Source: an uncultured bacterium
Lineage (GTDB): Bacteria > Oederibacteriota > PGYV01 > Palsa-1178
DNA length: 64,000 nucleotides
NCBI GenBank assembly: GCA_937889595.1
Contig: CALAOR010000077.1
Location: 1 to 64,000, forward strand
Direction of reading: 5' to 3'
Part shown: positions 9,467 through 25,200 of the stretch, piece after piece
Layout of the letters: each line of letters opens with the position of its first letter
How positions within the stretch are numbered: position 1 is the first letter of the stretch
Translations under genes and position numbers: made by a program
The notes under the pieces: generated by a model
Database searches by the model: none
Seen by the model: the letters and a program-made list of their open reading frames with translations, nothing else
What the model was told of the DNA's origin: nothing

Positions 9467-10962
9467 GAATATTCAAACCATTCAAAATCCGCGGGATTTT
9501 GACACGGCTTTCCGTTTCCCGTGGAATACATTCCAATGACCGCGCCTGTAAAACTTTTTATATTTTCAGGAGAAACATCCTTTGAGGAAGCCCCGGCAAG
9601 TACATGCCATTCTTTGCCGTCTTTGGACCAGGAAAATTGGTACCGGGATTCATTACCTGCGATCTCAAGGAAAACTATTGAACTTACACATGGTGCTGAG
9701 GCCATGATGACGCCTTGGGAATCGAGCACGGACCTGAAAAAAACTACTTTTTCCCCTTCCAGACGCCCCGCCGCAATTTGATAATGATTATCGTCGTTTG
9801 CGCGCAAACAAAGTCCCGCCTCCTCATTATCGGATGAAGGTGAAAATTCCAGGGAGCATCGTGTGCTCATTTTGAAATCTTGTTGCCGCCTGCCGATAAA
9901 TGACTGCGGCGTAATTTTTTCCAGGGTTCCTGCTGATCCTCTTATTCTCAAAAAACCAGGTCTCTCACTAAGGGAATAATTTTGGCGTTGGGGATTTCGA
10001 ACATATATCCATTCCGGACCAAGTGCCGGAATGTTAAAGTGTTGTCTCTGGTTTTTTTGGAGCGTCGAACTTTTGACGAATGATGGAAATTCCATTTGCG
10101 TAGCTACATGATGGTTATCTCCAATAATCGGCCAACCGCCTTCCACCCAACGAACCGGCGCCAGGAAAGTTTCCCGTCCTAAAGCAGAAGTCCCTTCGTG
10201 GCGTCTAACGCCAAGGAAAACCGCCCACCAACTGCCATCCGGACCCTCGACTAAGTCGGCGTGTCCCGCACATTGAATCGGGCTGTTGGGATCATCCCTT
10301 TCCGTGAGCATAGGATTAAAAGGGTTCGACTCAAAAGGACCCCAGGGATTACCCCCCCGCGCCACAACTTCCTGATGCTGGCTCTCCGTTCCGCCGGTGG
10401 CGGCGATGACATAGTACTTTCCCTTGATCTTATAAAGATGGGGGCCCTCATTCCATTCGCCCTCATATTCCCAGACCTGCTTAAAAGGTGTCGCCAACTT
10501 CAGGGTTGCAGGGTCTAATTCCGCCTGCATGATGCCGTTTTGACCGTCTATACCGGCCCTTGAATAATAAATCTTCCCATCATCGTCAAAGAACATAGAG
10601 CCGTCGATTCCATAGTCGTCCAGCCAGAAGGGTTCAGACCACGGCCCCGCCGGATTCTTTGACGTTACAATAAAATTCCCGCCGCCGCCCACATTGTTGC
10701 AAGTGAGATAAAAAGTTCCTTTATTATATCGAAGGGTTGGGGCAAATAATCCATCGGAACTTTTAGTTGATTGGAGGGACAACTGGGTATCACGATCAAG
10801 GGCGTTCCCGATCAAATCCCAGTTGATCAAGTCCCTGCTGTGATAAATCGGCAAACCGGGGAAATACTCAAACGTTGATGTGGCCAGATAAAAATCGTCG
10901 CCTGCGCGGCAAACCGTGGGATCCGGATTAAAGCCCGGAATAACAGGGTTGTAGTAATACAT
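9445..10962 (-). CDS. Glycoside hydrolase family 43 (beta-xylosidase / arabinofuranosidase-like)
   Basis: A 505-residue enzyme without signal peptide, so probably cytoplasmic and acting on imported xylo- or arabino-oligosaccharides. An N-terminal five-bladed propeller (about 1-310) shows the GH43 triad in context: Asp14 in NPDPT, Asp120 in YGIDGS, and Glu172 in WNEGPHLYK. The C-terminal ~190 residues form the beta-sandwich usual for the beta-xylosidase subgroup (RPGFLRIRG, CSLEFSPSSDNEEAGLCLR). The start reads MYYYNPVIPGFNPDP, typical of the family. AAGGAG lies rather far (about 13 bases) upstream. The final five codons come from a dispersed repeat, so the original C-terminus has been replaced or slightly changed. 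Xylosidase versus arabinofuranosidase cannot be decided here. Confidence 0.9.
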   Translation of the reverse strand: MYYYNPVIPGFNPDPTVCRAGDDFYLATSTFEYFPGLPIYHSRDLINWDLIGNALDRDTQLSLQSTKSSDGLFAPTLRYNKGTFYLTCNNVGGGGNFIVTSKNPAGPWSEPFWLDDYGIDGSMFFDDDGKIYYSRAGIDGQNGIMQAELDPATLKLATPFKQVWEYEGEWNEGPHLYKIKGKYYVIAATGGTESQHQEVVARGGNPWGPFESNPFNPMLTERDDPNSPIQCAGHADLVEGPDGSWWAVFLGVRRHEGTSALGRETFLAPVRWVEGGWPIIGDNHHVATQMEFPSFVKSSTLQKNQRQHFNIPALGPEWIYVRNPQRQNYSLSERPGFLRIRGSAGTLEKITPQSFIGRRQQDFKMSTRCSLEFSPSSDNEEAGLCLRANDDNHYQIAAGRLEGEKVVFFRSVLDSQGVIMASAPCVSSIVFLEIAGNESRYQFSWSKDGKEWHVLAGASSKDVSPENIKSFTGAVIGMYSTGNGKPCQNPADFEWFEYSAEGVSS

Positions 10963-11230: not shown

Positions 11231-12862
11231 TTAATTCCCTGCCATCATGGCCTCTACATCGGTTTTTGCCTGGCCAGTTGCTTTTATCGCGAACTTTTCG
11301 ACAAGAACCTTCACAACATTAGGTGATAAGAAAGCAGGAAGCGTTGGCCCCAATCGAATTCCTTTTACGCCTAAAAATAATAGAGCCAGCAGAACCGCTA
11401 CTGCTTTTTGTTCATACCAGGCTATATCAAATGATATTGGTAAATCGTTAATATCCTTTAATCCAAACACTTCTTTAAGTTTGAGGGCTACTACAGCCAA
11501 CGAATAGGAGTCATTGCACTGGCCGGCGTCAAGTACACGGGGAATCCCGCCGATATCGCCAAGGTTAAGTTTGTTATACCTGTATTTCGCGCAGCCGGCT
11601 GTCAAAATAACCGTATCTTTAGGCAATGTTTCCGCTACATCTGTGAAATAGTTTCTTGAAACCTGCCTGCCGTCGCAGCCGCCCATGACAACAAACCTCT
11701 TTATGGCCCCGGATTTGACAGCAGCAACAACCTTATCGGCGAGCGCCAGTATCTGATCATGCGCAAAACCGCCTGTTATTTCACCTTTTTCCAACTCCTG
11801 AGGCGCTTTGCATGTTTTTGCAAGTGCTATAACCGCTGAAAAATCTTTTACACTTCCTTCTTTCCTGTCGGGTATATGTTTTACCCCCGGAAAGCCGGTC
11901 ATGCCGGTGGTGAACATTCGATCCTTATATGAGTCTTTAACAGGGACTATGCAGTTTGTGGTCATTACAATCGGCCCGTTGAAAGATGCAAATTCCTTGC
12001 CCTGATGCCACCATGAGCCGCCATAGTTTCCGGCCAAGTGTTTATATTTTTTAAAAGAAGGATAGTAATTTGCCGGAAGCATTTCAGAGTGAGTGTAAAT
12101 GTCAACGCCTGTTCCTTCAGACTGTTTTAGGAGTTCTTCCATGTCCTTTAAGTCATGACCGGAAATGAGGATCCCCGGATTGCTTCTTACGCCGATGTTG
12201 ACTTTTGTAATTTCAGGCTTGCCAAATGTTTCAGTGTTGGCTTTGTCCAGCAAAGCCATGGCATTAACTGCAATCTCACCTGTTTTTAGCACAAGCGCGG
12301 TAAGCTCGTCCGCGGAAAGCACTTTTGGTATGGAAGCCAGTGCTTTGACCACAAACGCATATACGGCGTCATCATAATACCTTAAAACAGCTGCATGATC
12401 GGCATAAGCCGCTATCCCTTTAAGTCCGTATAACACCAATGATTTTAACGATCTTAGATCCTCATTGTCGCTATAGCTTAGAATTCCTGTTGTTAAAGCT
12501 TTTGCAGTGAATTCTTCCTTTGTTTTACCGGACCAAAGAGCGCAATCAGCTGTTATTGCCGGGGAAGAACCAGTATTAGCCTTTAATTCTCCCCTTATAG
12601 CCATGGCCTTAACGATGAGTTTTTCCAGTTTTTCGTCGTCGAAATTAGCATTTGTAATTGTAGCAAATAACCCCTGGCAAAGGAATTCACCGGTTTTTCT
12701 GTCGGGTTCTGGGTTTTGTTCCGCGTAAAGAGATATCCCCTGAAGCAAAAATATCAACAGGTCGTGCAGATTTGAAGTAGATTCCTTTTTTCCGCATGTC
12801 CCCGTAGCCGTACAAGCTACATTTTTTACTGTTTCCTGGCATTCGTTGCAATACATTCCCAT
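11231..12862 (-). CDS. hcp: Hydroxylamine reductase (hybrid-cluster protein)
   Basis: A 543-residue cytoplasmic hybrid-cluster protein, normal length. N-terminal cluster cysteines follow Cys5-x2-Cys8-x8-Cys17-x5-Cys23 ([18 protein letters not shown]). Later hallmarks of the hybrid cluster site are [48 protein letters not shown] and [10 protein letters not shown]. The family reduces hydroxylamine and nitric oxide and protects anaerobes from nitrosative stress. AAGGAGG lies 6 bases before the ATG. It is preceded by an Rrf2 regulator at a gap of 28 bases, so the two form an operon, and it ends at a strong hairpin. Confidence 0.97.
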
Positions 12863-16703: not shown

Positions 16704-18374
16704 TCATTTAACCCGCGCTTTTTCCGCTTTTATATGTATTTTTAATCCTTCCACATAAATCGCTTTTTTCGGCCTCGCCGGGCACACGTATTCACACGCG
16801 CCGCACCCTATGCACGTGCCTACGTCCACTTTCGGCAGCTTCATCCCGGATGATTTGTCGCGCTCAAGTTTGCAGGATTTTGTCGGGCAATATTCGACGC
16901 ACATTTTGCACTTTTGGTGATTCGCGTAAATAACGCATTTTTTCTTCACAAATTTGGCCGTCCCTATTTTAACCCTAATCTTATCCTCAATGGTCATGGA
17001 CTTTATCGCTCCGGTCGGGCAAACAAGCGTGCACGTGTTGCATTTATACTTGCAGAATGCCTTGTCATAATCCATCCTCGGCTGCAAAAAACCTTCAATG
17101 CCGTTCTCAAGAAAAGAAGGCGATATCACACGCGACGGACAGGCGCTCACGCACAAATGGCAGGCAATGCATTTTTCCGTAAACTGCTTTACTCCCGCCG
17201 CGCCGGGCGGCACGGGGATTATTTCGCGTTTTTGCGGTATAAGGTCCGAATTTATTTTTGCCTCAAGTTTCGCCGGTATCATCAGCGCAAGTGCGGCTCC
17301 CGCTACAGCGGCTCCGAGCATTTTTATCGCATCCCTGCGGCTTTCATCCGACGGCGTTTCGCTGCCTGCCGCCTGGACCGCTCCGCCGGAGTCAGCGGGC
17401 GTCTTTAAAACCTTCGGGGCATCGTTCTTATTCTGGTGCGCTTCGGGTTGATGGGCTTTTTTCTCCAGCTCCAGTTGGGGATGGTGGTGGAGATTGTGAT
17501 GGGAGCGCGGATGGTGGTGGGGGTTCCAGATCAGGTCCGCCTTATATCCGATAGCGTCAAACTTGCAGTTGTCTACGCAGTTATAGCAGCATACGCACCT
17601 TGAAAAATCAACATGCCTGTTCTTATAATCTATGCAGTTTGCCTTGCATATCTTCTCGCACGGCCCGCAATTCTTGCATTTGTTGTTTTTAAACTCAAGC
17701 TTGAAGATAGCCACCCCTGATATCAGGCTTAATATGCCTCCCACGGGGCAGATCGAGTTGCAGTAAATCCTGCCTTTCCATGCGGCAAACACCACAATAA
17801 GGATAAGAAATACGGCCGTAAAGACAGTCAGGCCGAAGCTCATATAATGCATCTTGATCTGTCTTAATGCCTGTATACCCATGGCGCTCAGGCCGTAAGC
17901 TGCGGAATTGTTGACAAATACCACCACGGGCTTTGCCAGGCCCGTCATTATCCTGCCGAAATTCGCATAAGGGTCGAGCATGCTCAAAAGCGACATGCTT
18001 ACATGCGCAAAAGCCAGCGCTACCGCGGCTGTCACGGCATAATGCAGCTTGCTTACAGGGTTTAAGTAAATGAACTTCATCTTTGAGATTCGGTTCCTTA
18101 TATCGATGACTATATCCTGCAAAAAACCCAGCGGGCACAGGAAAGAGCAGTATATCCTGCCGAACAAAAAAGTAAGCGTGAACAACAGCAGCAATATCAC
18201 GCTGCCTCCCAATATCCCTTTTGTGGCAAGCTCAACCACATGGGGGCTGACCTGCGACAGAACCAGCGCGTGGACAAACTGCGCGCTGGCCGTGCCTGCC
18301 GCAATAAACGCGTAAACAAAAAGAATAAATATAATTGTCGAAATTATTATTCTTATCGTCCTTAATTTTATCAT
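16704..18374 (-). CDS. NapH-NapG-like fused membrane polyferredoxin
   Basis: A 556-residue protein that joins two normally separate proteins. Residues 1-225 are NapH/NosR-like: at least four membrane segments with two CxxxCP motifs (Cys76-Cys80, Cys205-Cys209). Two [4Fe-4S] motifs follow (Cys233-236-239-243 and Cys260-263-266-270). A His-rich linker (about 285-315, HHHPRSHHNLHHH) leads to an internal twin-arginine segment (SRRDAIKMLGAAVAG, 345-359) and a NapG/MauM-like ferredoxin domain with four more Cys clusters (402-412, 441-452, 480-496, 521-531). In the Nap and Nos systems such proteins pass quinol electrons to periplasmic acceptors. It is the last gene of the redox operon and overlaps the preceding small Tat gene by four bases (ATGA). 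Confidence 0.9.
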   Translation of the reverse strand: MIKLRTIRIIISTIIFILFVYAFIAAGTASAQFVHALVLSQVSPHVVELATKGILGGSVILLLLFTLTFLFGRIYCSFLCPLGFLQDIVIDIRNRISKMKFIYLNPVSKLHYAVTAAVALAFAHVSMSLLSMLDPYANFGRIMTGLAKPVVVFVNNSAAYGLSAMGIQALRQIKMHYMSFGLTVFTAVFLILIVVFAAWKGRIYCNSICPVGGILSLISGVAIFKLEFKNNKCKNCGPCEKICKANCIDYKNRHVDFSRCVCCYNCVDNCKFDAIGYKADLIWNPHHHPRSHHNLHHHPQLELEKKAHQPEAHQNKNDAPKVLKTPADSGGAVQAAGSETPSDESRRDAIKMLGAAVAGAALALMIPAKLEAKINSDLIPQKREIIPVPPGAAGVKQFTEKCIACHLCVSACPSRVISPSFLENGIEGFLQPRMDYDKAFCKYKCNTCTLVCPTGAIKSMTIEDKIRVKIGTAKFVKKKCVIYANHQKCKMCVEYCPTKSCKLERDKSSGMKLPKVDVGTCIGCGACEYVCPARPKKAIYVEGLKIHIKAEKARVK

Positions 18375-18577
18375 TTTTGTTGTTTCTCCTTATTTTGACT
18401 TTTAACTACTGCTTTGCGGGGTTTGGTTTTGGCAGATACGTTCTTACCGGCCGCGGCAGTCGGATCATTTTCGGGCTTATCGGGAACCATCAGTCTTGCG
18501 AATGGGGAAATCAGCGACGCTGTTCCGGCATTGACACCGAACTTGAATGAATTTCTCATGAATTTCCTGCGGTTCAT
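18371..18577 (-). CDS. Small twin-arginine-signal protein
   Basis: A 68-residue protein beginning MNRRKFMRNSFKFGVNAG, a clear Tat signal motif, followed by a hydrophobic segment and a short Lys/Pro-rich tail. AGGAGG lies five bases before the ATG at 18577; a longer frame with no ribosome site was rejected. It overlaps the polyferredoxin gene by ATGA, so the two are translationally coupled. The mature part is only about 30 residues with no Cys, so it is not itself an Fe-S protein. It could be an assembly or anchor factor, or a relic of a NapG-type protein. Confidence 0.75.
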   Translation of the reverse strand: MNRRKFMRNSFKFGVNAGTASLISPFARLMVPDKPENDPTAAAGKNVSAKTKPRKAVVKSQNKEKQQK

Positions 18578-18696
18578 AGGAGCCTCCTGTGTGCGCTTTG
18601 TTTTCAGAACATGCAGTGCAGAAACTTTTTCTAAACTGCACTTCACACCGTGTGATCCACGTTATTTGAGATTCTATCCTGTTTTATGCTGCTCCG

Positions 18697-19860
18697 TCAA
18701 AACGTGGCGCGCCAGCCGATTACCGTCCTGTAAAAATTCAGTTCGTCGCTTTTATTTGTTGTTTTCCAGTTTGCGATATCCATCCTGAACTCAATCAGCG
18801 TGTCAAAAAAGTTTATTATCACGCCGGGTGTGTTTGTCACATATTCCTCACCGGGGCCCGCAGAAAAGGATGTGAACCCTGAAAAATTATGGTACGCATA
18901 GTCAAAGTGATACATAAGCTTAAGCCACGACGTCAGGCTGTAAAAAACTTTCAGATAATATCCCACGGGAGTGGCGTTCCTGACACCGGCTATTGCTTTT
19001 TCCCATCTTCCTCCGGCGTATTCGCCCCTGACATACAGGGCCCCTATTGAGTACGATGCGCCGCAGCTCCATCTCATCATATTGAGTTTTTGGGCGTTGT
19101 CATACCTGCCGAACATAAACGAGCCGGATAGCGTAATCGCGTCAAAAGCCGGTTCTATATGGATCATGGCGGACGGCCTTGTGTTGTTATCTATGAACTG
19201 CGTCTCGCCGTTTAACAGGTACAAGAATATCGGCATATTAAAGTCGTCCATCGTAAATGTTGTCGCTCCCTCAAAGCCGGCGCTGTGCGCCATTCCGAGG
19301 AAATTATTTATGCAAAATTTGCCGCCGCTTAGTTCCTCCTGCCAGAACATCTGCGAACCGTACTCCATTGTAAATATCGGCTTTATTATGCCTGCCGACA
19401 GCTCAAACCCCTCGGCCAGCGTATATTTTATCACCGCTTTTGTCCATTCCACGCCGTCGAGCCGCAGACTGACCGCGGACGGCTGCATTAGCTGCGCCCC
19501 TATGTCGCTGGTCAGTACCGGCGTCGCTCCGGTCACCGCGTTTAACATGGGCTCCACATCTATGGATAAGTACTTGTTTATGGATGCCTGCACAAATAAT
19601 ATCAGCGTCAAAAAGCCCATTCCGGTGTACTGTACGGCGTGGTCCGAACTGACCGCGTCCCTGTGTATCCCCGAGGTGTAATCAAACAGCGACATGCGTA
19701 TATGCCCTCCGACTTTTGTTCCTCCTGGCGCTTCACTTCCGCCTTCCTCCGCGTACACGCAGCTTAAGCATAGGACACTTATCAAAAACACAACTGCCAA
19801 TCTTTTTAAAAACATCCGTCCATCCGTAAGAACTATAATACCGGATTTATTAAATTTCAT
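18697..19860 (-). CDS. Predicted outer-membrane beta-barrel protein of the redox operon
   Basis: A 387-residue protein with a signal peptide (about 17-38, ending near VYAEE). A barrel-like pattern of alternating strands follows (KYTLAEGFELSAGIIKP, GSFMFGRYD, YYLKVFYSLTSWLKLMYHFDYAY) and the terminal residue is Phe, as in many outer-membrane proteins. The family was not recognised. The first ~11 codons (MKFNKSGIIVL) match those of the DOMON lipoprotein encoded at 21963-23183, with the same ribosome site, so the N-terminus seems to be a recombination-derived extension. The original start may be Met16 (MFLKRLAVVF). A porin or an outer-membrane conduit partner for the lipoproteins is a fair inference. 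Confidence 0.75.
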   Translation of the reverse strand: MKFNKSGIIVLTDGRMFLKRLAVVFLISVLCLSCVYAEEGGSEAPGGTKVGGHIRMSLFDYTSGIHRDAVSSDHAVQYTGMGFLTLILFVQASINKYLSIDVEPMLNAVTGATPVLTSDIGAQLMQPSAVSLRLDGVEWTKAVIKYTLAEGFELSAGIIKPIFTMEYGSQMFWQEELSGGKFCINNFLGMAHSAGFEGATTFTMDDFNMPIFLYLLNGETQFIDNNTRPSAMIHIEPAFDAITLSGSFMFGRYDNAQKLNMMRWSCGASYSIGALYVRGEYAGGRWEKAIAGVRNATPVGYYLKVFYSLTSWLKLMYHFDYAYHNFSGFTSFSAGPGEEYVTNTPGVIINFFDTLIEFRMDIANWKTTNKSDELNFYRTVIGWRATF

Positions 19861-20102
19861 TTAAAAGTTCCTTTTGACGGCCAGTTGTATATCATCGTGG
19901 CCGCCCCCTGTATTTAATGACACTTCCTGTCCGAATATTTTATGGATCATGAACAGATTGACAAAAGTATACGTACGGGCCGATACAAATACCACAATAA
20001 CCGACGATTTGTTGCACTGGCTATGTTGTTGTTGTATTCGGCGTACAACGGCGTAAAAACAGATATTAGAACAACGGCTAAAATATTTTTTTTTACTTGC
20101 AC
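19861..20102 (-). pseudogene. Internally deleted, frameshifted copy of the 23184-23783 gene
   Basis: The 5' part reads ILAVVLISVFTPLYAEYNNNIASA and matches the start of the intact gene (ILTVALLSVFAPLYAGYHDSIAGA). After about 30 codons the frame shifts into SSVIVVFVSARTYTFVNLFM, IHKIFGQEVSLNTG and AVKRNF with a stop. This corresponds to the last ~50 codons of the intact gene (SSVIMIFLSVLTYTAVDLFM to AVKRSF). About 120 codons in between are missing. The pseudogene lies directly before the barrel gene, as the intact gene lies directly before the DOMON lipoprotein gene. Confidence 0.9.
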
Positions 20103-20117
20103 TAACCGTTCTCCGTT

Positions 20118-20696
20118 TTATAATGTTATTTTTGTTATACAGTAATCATCGTGATATGTAACAAAATCATCCGCATAAGAAGAATACGCTATAAAAAAAT
20201 AATACTGGTTCCCCGGGACCAGCGCTATGTCTTGTGTGTCGCCGGAGTTCAGCGGTATCGTGAAATTTATCTCCGTATGCGGCGGCGACGCCGTCTCTGT
20301 GCCTGATATTGCCGTTACATCCTGATGTACGTCCATTTCATGGGTTGACAGTGAAGTGCCGTAATTATCCTGTATGTGCACTTCGCTGCCGTTCACCACG
20401 TACCCTATTATGATATTGGCATTCGTTTTTTTGTCCGAAGAAGCCGGTATATTCGGGTCGTTGAACCCCACGGCCACCCAGCCCGTGCCGGGCGCGCCCA
20501 TGACACAATCCAGGTTTGTACCCACAACTTTCCACTTGAAAGTGAACGCCGTTCCTAAAAACTGGCCCACAAGAGCCTGTTCCTTATACGTTGACACGGT
20601 CTGTGTGGGCATAAAATACGGCGGTTCCACGCACGCCGTAAAAAAACAGGTCAAGTACAGGAACATCGCAGCATATAAAAAGACGGATCTTTTCAT
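20118..20696 (-). CDS. DOMON-domain lipoprotein
   Basis: A 192-residue lipoprotein (lipobox CFFTAC). After about 25 residues it is a single DOMON domain: FTFKWKVVGTNLDCVM, GTGWVAVGF, ANIIIGYV, then INFTIPLNSGDT and a YYFFIAYSSYAD strand. DOMON domains bind heme or sugar, and in bacteria often occur with redox proteins. A Met (in LDCVMGAP) and His residues (in VHIQD, STHEMDVHQD) could serve as heme ligands; this is not shown. The ATG at 20696 has AAGGAGG five bases upstream; the longer frame starts before that site. It lies between the FMN-binding protein and barrel genes, and is related to the C-terminal domain of the 21963-23183 product. Confidence 0.87.
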   Translation of the reverse strand: MKRSVFLYAAMFLYLTCFFTACVEPPYFMPTQTVSTYKEQALVGQFLGTAFTFKWKVVGTNLDCVMGAPGTGWVAVGFNDPNIPASSDKKTNANIIIGYVVNGSEVHIQDNYGTSLSTHEMDVHQDVTAISGTETASPPHTEINFTIPLNSGDTQDIALVPGNQYYFFIAYSSYADDFVTYHDDYCITKITL

Positions 20697-20744
20697 GTTT
20701 TCCCTCCTTGTTTTCATATTTCCCGGGGCGCCGGCATTATTTGT

Positions 20745-21308
20745 CTACCTTTTTTTTTTCGACCATGACGCTGCTATGAGCCTGTAGAGCAGCATGATTT
20801 TTTTCGTGGATAAGGTGTCCGCCCTGGAAGTTATGGTCGCCCCGCTTACCGCATTTATTTCCTCTCCCAGATGTATCTTTTCATCCAGTTTCCTTCCCGA
20901 AAACTGGTTAAGGAATCCCCTGTTTTTCCTGACCCTTATTTTATATTTATCCGTGGTCTCGAAGATCGTATCGACCCTTTTTATCCTGAACGTAAACGGA
21001 TCTATGCAAACCACGACACTGTTGTCTCCCCACTTGTCAGGCTCATTATCCACCATTGCCGCGCCCACTGTTTTTTTGCCTTTGTACGCGAAATAGATCT
21101 TACAGGTTTTTTTTACAATTGCTTCCGCCCCGTCAAGGTTGGCTTTAACGAAGGCAACCTGTCTCGAGGTCAGGTTAAACACTTTGGCCGACACCATGTC
21201 CGCGCCGAAGACTTTCTTAATAACATCCTCGGGCCGTTCTGTTGATTCCGCATGCCCGGTAGAAACAAAAACAACCGCTAAAAACAGCAAAAACGCTTTT
21301 ACTTTCAT
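20745..21308 (-). CDS. Periplasmic FMN-binding domain protein
   Basis: A 187-residue exported protein with a cleavable signal peptide (AESTE after residue 20). The FMN-binding domain (about 80-180) contains VSGATITS at 154-161. This is the motif in which ApbE-type flavin transferases attach FMN to Thr in NqrC, RnfG and NosR. A separate FMN-binding protein next to a NapH-like polyferredoxin looks like a split NosR. It probably carries electrons between the membrane ferredoxin and periplasmic acceptors. It lies 48 bases from the DOMON gene and 58 from the ankyrin gene, so the operon is continuous. No ApbE gene is in the window. Confidence 0.92.
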   Translation of the reverse strand: MKVKAFLLFLAVVFVSTGHAESTERPEDVIKKVFGADMVSAKVFNLTSRQVAFVKANLDGAEAIVKKTCKIYFAYKGKKTVGAAMVDNEPDKWGDNSVVVCIDPFTFRIKRVDTIFETTDKYKIRVRKNRGFLNQFSGRKLDEKIHLGEEINAVSGATITSRADTLSTKKIMLLYRLIAASWSKKKR

Positions 21309-21366
21309 TGTCAGTATCTCCTGTTATTTTATTCACAAATATTTTAGACAACCATTTTGATACCGG

Positions 21367-21897
21367 CTACTTTGCCCCTGCTTTTCTCAATATTTCCACT
21401 GTATCCTTATTCGCCGCCCAACCAAGCGCGGTCGTGAACATACATCCCATCTGGTCCACATCAACGCCCTTGTCTATCAACAGCTTGACCAGTTCCTTAT
21501 TCCCGCCTTTTGCCGCATACATCAGGCTGGTATATCCGTATCTGCTGATCTTTTTAACGTCCGCGCCGGCGTCTATGAGCGCCTTTGCCGTATCATAACA
21601 GCCTTTTTCCGCGGCCTTCATCAGAGGCGTTACTTCATATTTATCATGCGTTATGGCGTTCACATCCGCGCCTTCTATTGTAAGTTTCTTTACCTCTTCA
21701 GTTTTGCATGCTCCGGCCGCGTCCATAAGCGTCTGCCCTGCCGCATCTGCCGCTGTTTTGGCGGTATTTTCAGCAGATACTGCGACCGGCGGTTTCTCCT
21801 GCACGACAGCCTGCGAATTAACAACCGGTGCCGTGGAGCATCCGTAAAACGCAGAGATAATAACTACACCCGCCGTAAGATAGCCTGTGTTTTTCAT
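21367..21897 (-). CDS. Ankyrin-repeat lipoprotein
   Basis: A 176-residue lipoprotein (lipobox AFYGC, Cys20). An Ala/Thr-rich spacer is followed by about four ankyrin repeats (from residue 58: TLMDAAGACKTEEVKKLTIEG, then VTPLMKAAEKGCYDTAKALIDAGADV, YTSLMYAAKGGNKELVKLLIDKGVDV and a last short repeat). Ankyrin repeats are protein-binding; similar periplasmic ankyrin proteins elsewhere protect catalase or redox enzymes. Its place in the redox operon suggests it docks onto one of the partner proteins. Confidence 0.9.
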   Translation of the reverse strand: MKNTGYLTAGVVIISAFYGCSTAPVVNSQAVVQEKPPVAVSAENTAKTAADAAGQTLMDAAGACKTEEVKKLTIEGADVNAITHDKYEVTPLMKAAEKGCYDTAKALIDAGADVKKISRYGYTSLMYAAKGGNKELVKLLIDKGVDVDQMGCMFTTALGWAANKDTVEILRKAGAK

Positions 21898-21962
21898 GTT
21901 TGTCTCCTTATTTATGCTGTTCCGTCAAAACGTCGCGCCGATTGATGCCTGTAAAAAGACCA

Positions 21963-23183
21963 TTAAAATTGTGTGTTTCGCAAGCATTGCCTGTCGCTGT
22001 TAGAACCCCCGTGTTGCGATGTCGTATTATCCTGCGAGGCCCACCCAAGCAGAAAATCATAATAGTTTCCGGGAACCAGAATCACATCGCGCGTGTCTCC
22101 CGTATTAAGCGGATATTTAAACCTGAATGAAGTTATCGAACCCACCTGCGTTCCTGTATAGCTTATTATGTTGTTCACTCCCGGCGGATTATATGATGTA
22201 TCATTGAAAACCGCCTGATCAGCCGCGCCTACAGCGTTATAAAAATCATACAGGTTCGCCACTCCCGCAGATGTTACATAGCCTATGATGATGTTTGCCC
22301 CGTTTCCTTTGCCGTTTGAAGACGCTGTGTTCGTATGCCATCCCACAGCCACCCAGCCCGTACTCGTGCAGGTCAGTATGCAGTCCATATTGACCCCGCT
22401 ATCCACTACCATGTATTGGAAAGTGCAGCCTCCCCCAACCTTTGATTTCCATGCCATAGTCGCTGTTGCGGTCGCTGTTGGGGTTGCTGTTCTGGTGGCA
22501 GTCCTGGAGTATGTAGCCGTGACAGTCCTTGTCATAGTGACAGTCCTAGACGCCGTGAGAGTTACAGAGAACGTAGCCGTAAGAGTGGCCGTATATGTCA
22601 GGGTTGCACTCGATGTCATGCTTACTGTTACGCTTGGCGTAATGCTTGGAGTACTGCTTAGTGTGCTGCTTAGCGTTATACTCGGAGTCACTGTATTTGT
22701 CTGCGTATCAGTGGCTGAACCGGCCCACGGAGTAATAGTCGGCGATACCGTATGCGTCATGGTTATGGTCGGTGTTATGGTTATCGTCGGTGTTATGGTT
22801 ATCGTGTATGTGTCCGTATCTGCCGGTGTTACGCTCGGAATATCAGTATATGTAGACGTCGGAGATTTGGTAAATGTAGGAGTTATAGTGTCCGCAGGCA
22901 CGGTCACGGTCTGTGATACGGTCCCGGTCTCAGTATCTATTTCCGTCTGCGTCAGTGTTGCGGTGTCGATCAATGTTTCCGTCCAGGTCGGTGTTGCGGT
23001 TTCGATCACTGTCACCGACCCCGTAGGCAGAACAGTGGCTGTATATGTGAAGGTAAAGGTCGCCGGCCTGGCAACCGTAGGAGTCAGTGGCATAGCGGAA
23101 GTAGGCGTCCTGAGTGTGTTGCACCCTATGATTATTATGATCAAAACAGAAAGAACTATAATGCCTAATTTGTTCATTTTCAA
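21963..23183 (-). CDS. Lipoprotein with long Thr-rich stalk and C-terminal DOMON domain
   Basis: A 406-residue lipoprotein (lipobox IIIIGC). A stalk of about 220 residues (25-245) is dominated by TxTxTPT-type repeats. The C-terminal ~160 residues form a DOMON domain: CTFQYMVVDSGVNMDCIL, STGWVAVGWH, ANIIIGYV, FRFKYPLNTGDT and YYDFLLGWAS. It is thus a stalked version of the 20118-20696 protein. The start is TTG at 23183: GGAG is seven bases upstream and the position matches the ATG of the duplicated start in front of the barrel gene. An ATG two codons later is the alternative. It begins immediately after the stop of the upstream gene. Confidence 0.87.
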   Translation of the reverse strand: MKMNKLGIIVLSVLIIIIIGCNTLRTPTSAMPLTPTVARPATFTFTYTATVLPTGSVTVIETATPTWTETLIDTATLTQTEIDTETGTVSQTVTVPADTITPTFTKSPTSTYTDIPSVTPADTDTYTITITPTITITPTITMTHTVSPTITPWAGSATDTQTNTVTPSITLSSTLSSTPSITPSVTVSMTSSATLTYTATLTATFSVTLTASRTVTMTRTVTATYSRTATRTATPTATATATMAWKSKVGGGCTFQYMVVDSGVNMDCILTCTSTGWVAVGWHTNTASSNGKGNGANIIIGYVTSAGVANLYDFYNAVGAADQAVFNDTSYNPPGVNNIISYTGTQVGSITSFRFKYPLNTGDTRDVILVPGNYYDFLLGWASQDNTTSQHGGSNSDRQCLRNTQF

Positions 23184-23783
23184 TTAAAAGCTCCTTTTGA
23201 CGGCCAGTTGTATATCACCGTGGCCGTCCCCTGTATTTAATGACAATTCCTGTCCGAATATTTTATGGGTCATGAACAGATCGACCGCAGTATACGTAAG
23301 AACCGATAAAAATATCATGATTACCGACGATTTCAGGATCATGACATTGTATGTTTCCTGCTGTTTGTCCAGCAGCTTCTGGTAATTTTCAGGGGTTGTG
23401 GCATTTATCCGGTCATACAGCGTATTATACTCTTTCACTTTTGCCTGTTCGTAGAAGATAGAGCCTACGGCTGCGCCGAAGAGCAGCACGTTTGTCGAGA
23501 TCAGGATCGTTGACCCTGTCAGGAACGGCTTTTCCTTAATCTTTTTCCCGTTAAGAGTCGGTGTGTCCTGTAATTTTATCATCTCATACAGTTTGAATAT
23601 GACATTCTTGAGTTTTTCACTGGGTCTTTCCCTGTATGCCCGTTTATACAATTCCAGCGCGGGGATAAGCTTATGATGCTTTAATGCCTGGGCTGCCCCG
23701 GCTATGCTGTCGTGGTATCCGGCGTACAGCGGCGCAAAAACAGATAATAAAGCAACGGTTAAAATAACTTTTATTATAGACAC
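23184..23783 (-). CDS. Membrane protein with signal peptide and TPR-like N-terminal region, first gene of the redox operon
   Basis: A 199-residue protein. A signal peptide (to about residue 21) is followed by a helical pair resembling one TPR (SIAGAAQALKHHKLIPALELYKRAYRERP). Two hydrophobic segments follow (about 88-108, ILISTNVLLFGAAVGSIFY, and 148-170) with a charged loop between. The family was not recognised. The GTG start has GGAGA seven bases upstream. Its stop abuts the next gene. A deleted second copy sits in the same operon, which shows that the operon was rearranged by duplication. Confidence 0.8.
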   Translation of the reverse strand: MSIIKVILTVALLSVFAPLYAGYHDSIAGAAQALKHHKLIPALELYKRAYRERPSEKLKNVIFKLYEMIKLQDTPTLNGKKIKEKPFLTGSTILISTNVLLFGAAVGSIFYEQAKVKEYNTLYDRINATTPENYQKLLDKQQETYNVMILKSSVIMIFLSVLTYTAVDLFMTHKIFGQELSLNTGDGHGDIQLAVKRSF

Positions 23784-24885: not shown

Positions 24886-25200
24886 TTACCCGGGTTTATC
24901 AAGCATATGCAGGACAGCCAACACAGGGTGGTTTAAAAGCATCCTGGGGCCGCTGTAACGCATGATTTGGCGCACCAGCTCCCTTTCCCCCGGTTTATAA
25001 CAATGCACGGGGCATTTGACGCAGGTGGGTTTATCGGCTTTGAAGGGGCATTTATCGATCCTGTCCATGGCATACGCTTCAATCTCACTGCAATCAGGGC
25101 ATAAAGCCCCTTTTTTAATCCCGTGTTTATTAATGCAGTACATGGCTATCATCAGCTTGATCGTCCTGCGCTCTCGTTCTATGCGTTTATTCCCGATCAC
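24886..25200 (-). CDS. YgbA-like nitrous-oxide-stimulated-promoter family protein
   Basis: A 104-residue protein of the YgbA_NO family. It has a basic N-terminal helix (RIERERRTIKLMIAMYC), a Cys-rich centre (CPDCSEIEAYAM, KCPFKADKPTCVKCPVHCY) that could bind a metal or Fe-S cluster, and the family end VRQIMRYSGPRMLLNHPVLAVLH. Relatives are induced by nitric oxide and nitrosative stress in other bacteria; their biochemical role is unclear. The GTG start overlaps the stop of the LacI gene by four bases, so translation is coupled. A decayed second copy of its 3' end is at 8253-8354. Confidence 0.88.
   Translation of the reverse strand: MIGNKRIERERRTIKLMIAMYCINKHGIKKGALCPDCSEIEAYAMDRIDKCPFKADKPTCVKCPVHCYKPGERELVRQIMRYSGPRMLLNHPVLAVLHMLDKPG

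Follow-up and report, generated by a model that had tools for sequence, protein, structure and literature searches.

Eight genes in the genome of an uncultured bacterium of the phylum Oederibacteriota (assembly GCA_937889595.1) bring together a NapH-NapG fusion, a periplasmic protein predicted to bind flavin mononucleotide (FMN), a porin-like barrel and two DOMON lipoproteins. The genes, denoted g1 to g8 (Table 1), belong to a stretch of 64,000 nucleotides (nt), hereafter the window, that covers positions 1 to 64,000 of contig CALAOR010000077.1. Judged from sequence comparison, the operon, encountered a single time, is a patchwork of modules that have independent conserved contexts, and by the published definition (Meheust et al., 2021; PMC8238504) its gene content places it among the NapH-like flavinylated systems. 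The reading that we favor, and in which we have about even confidence, is that the operon encodes a NapH-type flavinylated chain that transfers electrons in the periplasm to an acceptor brought in via the porin, and that it is a recently assembled variant of a known system.

Table 1. Genes and a gene remnant of the operon; coordinates refer to the window.
Feature	Coordinates	Strand	Description	Domain matches
g1	23184..23783	-	199 amino acids; signal/transmembrane segment and two more hydrophobic segments; multicopy family	no Pfam match
g2	21963..23183	-	lipoprotein; long Thr/Pro-rich stalk; C-terminal DOMON, residues 253-377	
g3	21367..21897	-	lipoprotein with ankyrin repeats	Ank_2, E 2.5e-35
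g4	20745..21308	-	periplasmic FMN-binding protein, SGATIT flavinylation site	FMN_bind, E 1.3e-4; RnfG-like
g5	20118..20717	-	DOMON lipoprotein; predicted haem-b-type DOMON fold; Met replaced by Lys, His kept	
decayed partial g1 copy	19828..20122	-	between g5 and g6, extends into the start of g6	
g6	18697..19860	-	porin-like outer-membrane barrel, 16 predicted strands; true start probably near 19812	
g7	18371..18646	-	open reading frame of 91 amino acids; Tat leader MNRRKFMRNSFKFGVNAG, then Lys-rich tail	
g8	16704..18374	-	NapH-NapG fusion	Fer4_5 and Fer4

The survey of flavinylated systems reported 539 NapH-like clusters in which FMN_bind is encoded by a gene of its own, the substrate being unknown for most of them (PMC8238504). 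The operon resembles these clusters in that a multi-transmembrane (TM) PF12801 protein, g8, accompanies a separate FMN_bind protein, g4, four genes away, and differs from them in the fusion of NapG, the two DOMON lipoproteins, the porin and the encoding of ApbE on another contig. The initial annotation described g4 and g8 as a split NosR; both parts are present, but because NapH with a separate FMN protein has been published as the NapH-like flavinylated system, the arrangement is of a known kind, and the accompanying statement that no such system has been described holds for the exact gene set only. NosR and PceC likewise combine an FMN domain with a NapH-type Fe-S transmembrane part, whereas here the FMN site (g4) and NapH-NapG (g8) reside in separate genes, unlike the single polypeptide of NosR, the NapG half is added, and neither a nos nor a reductive dehalogenase gene is present in the operon. 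No nitrous oxide reductase gene was found among the Pfam-scanned open reading frames (ORFs) of the window, to which this search was confined.

The g8 protein matches Fer4_5 (PF12801) in Pfam at 7.3e-15 and contains several Fer4 clusters; its two halves match the NCBIfam profiles of NapH and NapG, respectively, with scores below the curated cut-offs (67.7 vs 213 for NapH; 61.4 vs 269 for NapG). Two CX3CP motifs and, in the NapH half, two ferredoxin clusters are followed by a twin-arginine motif with a hydrophobic segment at residue 345, between the halves, and by four Cys clusters in the NapG half, a layout that would be expected for a NapG exported by twin-arginine translocation (Tat) and fused onto NapH. 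The NapGH quinol dehydrogenase of the periplasmic nitrate reductase has the same two halves, CX3CP and ferredoxin motifs and NapG leader; g8 differs from it in being one polypeptide, in the lack of NapA, NapB and NapC in the operon and in scoring so far under the curated cut-offs.

Conservation was examined in 45 genomes of the phylum and in 64 DOMON loci elsewhere. The initial annotation had named a lack of joint conservation of the neighbors in relatives as a ground for refutation; the complete block was found nowhere else in this set, and the operon was rejected as a conserved unit. Each module does occur on its own elsewhere: NapH-NapG is found with DUF362 and TatC-like genes, the FMN protein with the barrel, and DOMON proteins with cytochrome oxidase, rubrerythrin/desulfoferrodoxin or DUF5777 barrels. 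Fusions of NapH and NapG, of about 500-546 amino acids, are encoded in many of the phylum's genomes, nearly always with a gene for a Tat-exported DUF362 protein upstream and in several cases also with a TatC-like gene (DUF362 was confirmed by Pfam in one locus, and the other loci and the TatC-like genes were recognized by inspection of sequences only). No FMN or DOMON gene adjoins these fusions in the other genomes of the phylum, and a second NapH-NapG gene of the same genome (contig C23) also has neither alongside; a literature search on DUF362 with NapH found no paper. The only recognizable feature of g7 is its twin-arginine leader; g7 occupies the position of the DUF362 protein of the relatives and is perhaps its remnant, the similarity between the two being weak and limited to the Tat leader. 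Several FGE-sulfatase-domain proteins are encoded in the genome (13956-15152 and 46081-47280 of the window; L006 6106-7230), and two of these genes sit downstream of the two NapH-NapG genes. This proximity was rejected as meaningful, given a further such gene in the same window.

The g6 barrel matches a Pfam porin family below threshold, and the AlphaFold2 model (pLDDT 71) finds OprP, PorB, OmpF and similar porins as its best Foldseek matches; a 16-strand porin-like barrel of this kind would suit passage of a small solute and not an electron conduit. In eight genomes of the phylum, relatives of g4, whose FMN_bind score is 23.0 bits against a cut-off of 22, are encoded beside or near g6-type barrels; most of these loci also carry genes for ApbE, for a NusG_II protein, which we take to be EetA-like, and for a PF07456 (EetB-type) protein (the neighboring genes were tested against Pfam in locus L084 only). 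A search with a barrel profile also recovered this pair in Fibrobacterota, where 5 of 151 genomes have it: two combine it with a Rieske-type protein, ApbE and a 4-TM protein, and three with DUF2271-like and DUF4405-like genes. Profiles for Rieske, DUF2271 and DUF4405 were applied to one representative each, and the match to DUF2271 fell slightly under the cut-off. Both DUF2271 and DUF4405 are known from flavinylated systems (PMC8238504, PMC11334425). In three of the Fibrobacterota loci (L166 7502-12208, L167 and L168), the DUF2271-like, DUF4405-like, barrel and FMN protein genes and a chemotaxis-receptor-like gene are consecutive, which suggests redox-linked taxis. It is a tentative possibility that a periplasmic flavoprotein with a dedicated porin makes up an undescribed envelope electron-transfer module, present in at least two phyla, with an interchangeable inner-membrane donor; candidate donors would be the 4-TM protein with EetA/EetB-type genes, the 4-TM protein with the Rieske protein, DUF4405 with DUF2271 and, in the operon, NapH-NapG with DOMON. 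A literature search on the FMN-binding domain, porin, ApbE and extracellular electron transfer (EET), judged by titles and term counts and thus no proof that none exists, found no report of an FMN-porin pairing.

In the chain that we favor, g8 would take electrons at the inner membrane, from either quinol or a cytosolic ferredoxin, and pass them through its Fe-S clusters to the presumably Tat-exported NapG half, from which they would reach a covalent FMN of g4, attached by the ApbE that another contig encodes. Once reduced, g4 would pass the electrons on to a small acceptor in the periplasm, with the g6 porin providing for entry of the acceptor or exit of the product, and the DOMON lipoproteins g2 and g5 would be partner proteins, periplasmic or tethered to the outer membrane, with haem or the acceptor as their ligand. 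A search for ApbE, which the initial annotation had advised, located one in the genome, outside the operon (contig C88:22030), near three g4 paralogues, one g6 paralogue and an EetB-like (PF07456) gene recognized by sequence. This part of C88 (locus L081, 4953-18572) contains ApbE, PF07456-like, FMN protein and TatA/TatC-like genes and a g6-type barrel together, along with a molybdopterin oxidoreductase whose subunits include NrfD- and DsrO-like proteins, and is likely to encode the main flavin chain of the organism. A ferrochelatase is also encoded in the genome, so that haem synthesis is possible.

Both window DOMON proteins match the family in Pfam (E 1.4e-9 for g2, 6.5e-15 for g5). For the g5 model (pLDDT 87.6), Foldseek matches include 6jt6, 1d7b and 7b04, the best folds in the PDB being those of the dopamine beta-hydroxylase DOMON, the haem-b domains of pyranose and cellobiose dehydrogenases, and NxrC; a PDB sequence search with the DOMON profile gave nothing useful. 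In an alignment of 67 DOMON sequences, 58 carry Met at one, and 58 carry His at the other, of two columns presumed to hold the haem ligands, as deduced from the cellobiose dehydrogenase (CDH) cytochrome and not from superposition. A further DOMON copy of the genome, on contig C56, has the Met. The window proteins thus resemble the DOMON b-type cytochromes (cellobiose and pyranose dehydrogenases, NxrC, EbdC) in predicted fold and in the conserved His before the last strand but differ from them in the absence of the conserved Met from both copies. Given this loss, haem binding appears plausible for the family but doubtful for g2 and g5, which weakens the haem step of the chain in the initial annotation.

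Several observations weigh against the favored reading. In none of the other genomes examined does NapH-NapG adjoin an FMN, barrel or DOMON gene, so the case for a common function of these proteins comes from one operon. The SGATIT site of g4 has Asn in place of the usual Asp three residues upstream (motif as defined in PMC12052999), g4 forms a long branch, and confidence in the g6 barrel model is modest. The g5-g6 gap of 257 bp, with its decayed gene copy, indicates that the operon may be two transcription units. As for the donor, a genome search did not find MqnA/D and returned MenD-like matches below the cut-off only; UbiA-family proteins are present but non-diagnostic. With no known menaquinone pathway detected, quinol, the electron source named in the initial annotation, is unproven. 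What persists of the chain proposed there is the inner-membrane NapH-NapG beside a periplasmic SGAT FMN protein, in a genome with ApbE and ferrochelatase, whereas conservation, the DOMON Met, a conduit barrel and quinol do not bear it out.

The DOMON relatives offer a different context. The 64 loci found by the profile scan come mainly from Spirochaetes, Desulfobulbales and Cloacimonadota, with cytochrome oxidase as a neighbor in 17, rubrerythrin/desulfoferrodoxin in about a dozen and DUF5777 barrels in four; at E 1e-6, no locus shows a neighbor of the g4, g6 or g8 type. In Desulfobulbales and relatives, a DOMON gene leads an SCO-cytochrome oxidase operon (L099 10001-12879 and similar loci), and DOMON lipoprotein genes adjoin DUF5777-type barrel genes in this genome and in one relative (L080 8976-9509 with 9559-10308; L082 2793-4128). 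The statement of the initial annotation that genes related to nitrate, nitrous oxide and cytochrome c are lacking nearby holds within the operon, but on the same strand the operon has on one side a gene for a prismane/hybrid-cluster protein (Hcp; 11231-12862) and on the other a YgbA_NO gene (24886-25200), and both of these families are associated with nitrosative stress. The associations with oxidases and rubrerythrin/desulfoferrodoxin, together with these flanking genes, would fit detoxification of oxygen, nitric oxide or other reactive species, with NapH-NapG and the FMN protein feeding DOMON proteins that work with redox-stress enzymes, and Hcp and YgbA belonging to the same response. We regard this as unlikely: other genes and non-coding stretches separate Hcp and YgbA from the operon, which itself has neither an oxidase nor a nitric oxide reductase, and at the Met position the window DOMON proteins diverge from those linked to oxidases.

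The chain originally envisaged, in which DOMON haems at the outer surface would receive electrons from FMN and hand them to an external acceptor, seems quite improbable. The fold matches to haem-b cytochromes, the lipoprotein anchors, the stalk of g2 and the genomic ferrochelatase are compatible with it, as is the company of the related FMN-barrel genes: across the phylum, and on C88, g4 and g6 relatives adjoin ApbE, NusG_II and PF07456 genes, as in the flavin EET locus of Listeria (ApbE, EetA and EetB), where EetB is the substrate-binding component of flavin adenine dinucleotide export (PMC9973259). The window operon, however, differs from that locus in lacking ApbE, NusG_II and EetB and in being of a Gram-negative type with a porin; it also has no type II NADH dehydrogenase, for which no genome-wide search was made. 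Against surface transfer stand the lost Met, the resemblance of g6 to solute porins with no sign of an electron conduit, and the absence of a c-type haem motif, the sole CXXCH of the operon lying within a ferredoxin cluster of g8; display of the lipoproteins at the surface is a presumption. A conduit like MtrCAB was rejected, as the operon has no multihaem c-type cytochrome and g6, with 16 predicted strands and OprP, PorB and OmpF as best matches, differs from the large redox-enclosing barrel of that system, at moderate model confidence. A literature search on DOMON with FMN-binding and EET found no paper.

The architecture of the operon suggests recent rearrangement. All eight ORFs were confirmed as annotated, all on the minus strand, with gaps from g1 to g8 of about 0, 65, 58, 27, 257 and 50 nt and then an overlap, so that the supposed upper limit of 120 bases fails between g5 and g6. 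The DOMON (g2, g5), ankyrin, FMN_bind and Fer4_5/Fer4 domains and the NapH and NapG halves were recovered as predicted, and lipoprotein-type leaders are recognizable in g2, g3 and g5; a tetratricopeptide-repeat (TPR) assignment of g1 was rejected for want of a Pfam match, and g1 instead belongs to a family with several dispersed paralogues in this genome. Segments derived from g1 (183 nt at 87% identity and 111 nt at 81%) lie in the g5-g6 gap, where a g1 fragment was recovered again, at 19864-20019, in a search for g1 paralogues, and a 50-nt stretch 3′ of g6 matches one 3′ of g2. As homology of g6 to its relatives begins near residue 18, the first ~15 codons probably derive from a copy of the g2 start. 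The g1 remnant and the common flank make it probable that the operon expanded as a cassette around g2 and g6 was duplicated and exchanged. That envelope genes without a joint function were run together by accident through such events, as the decayed g1 copy, the common flank, the dispersed g1 family and the unconserved block might suggest, is hardly probable, because the eight ORFs are intact and most are tightly packed, chance adjacency of several redox modules is unlikely, and g4 and g6 relatives are adjacent in other genomes, so that at least this pair is functional.

The operon is thus best regarded as a new combination of known parts and not as a new type of system. With it, the components recorded for flavinylated envelope chains come to include NapH-NapG fusions, DOMON lipoproteins and a porin, and it illustrates module swapping as a way in which such chains arise in an uncultured phylum. 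The most interesting by-product, and the one most worth pursuing, is the recurrent FMN-porin pairing, which suggests solutes admitted by a dedicated pore as the targets of Gram-negative flavin chains, an idea that can be tested in culturable Fibrobacterota.

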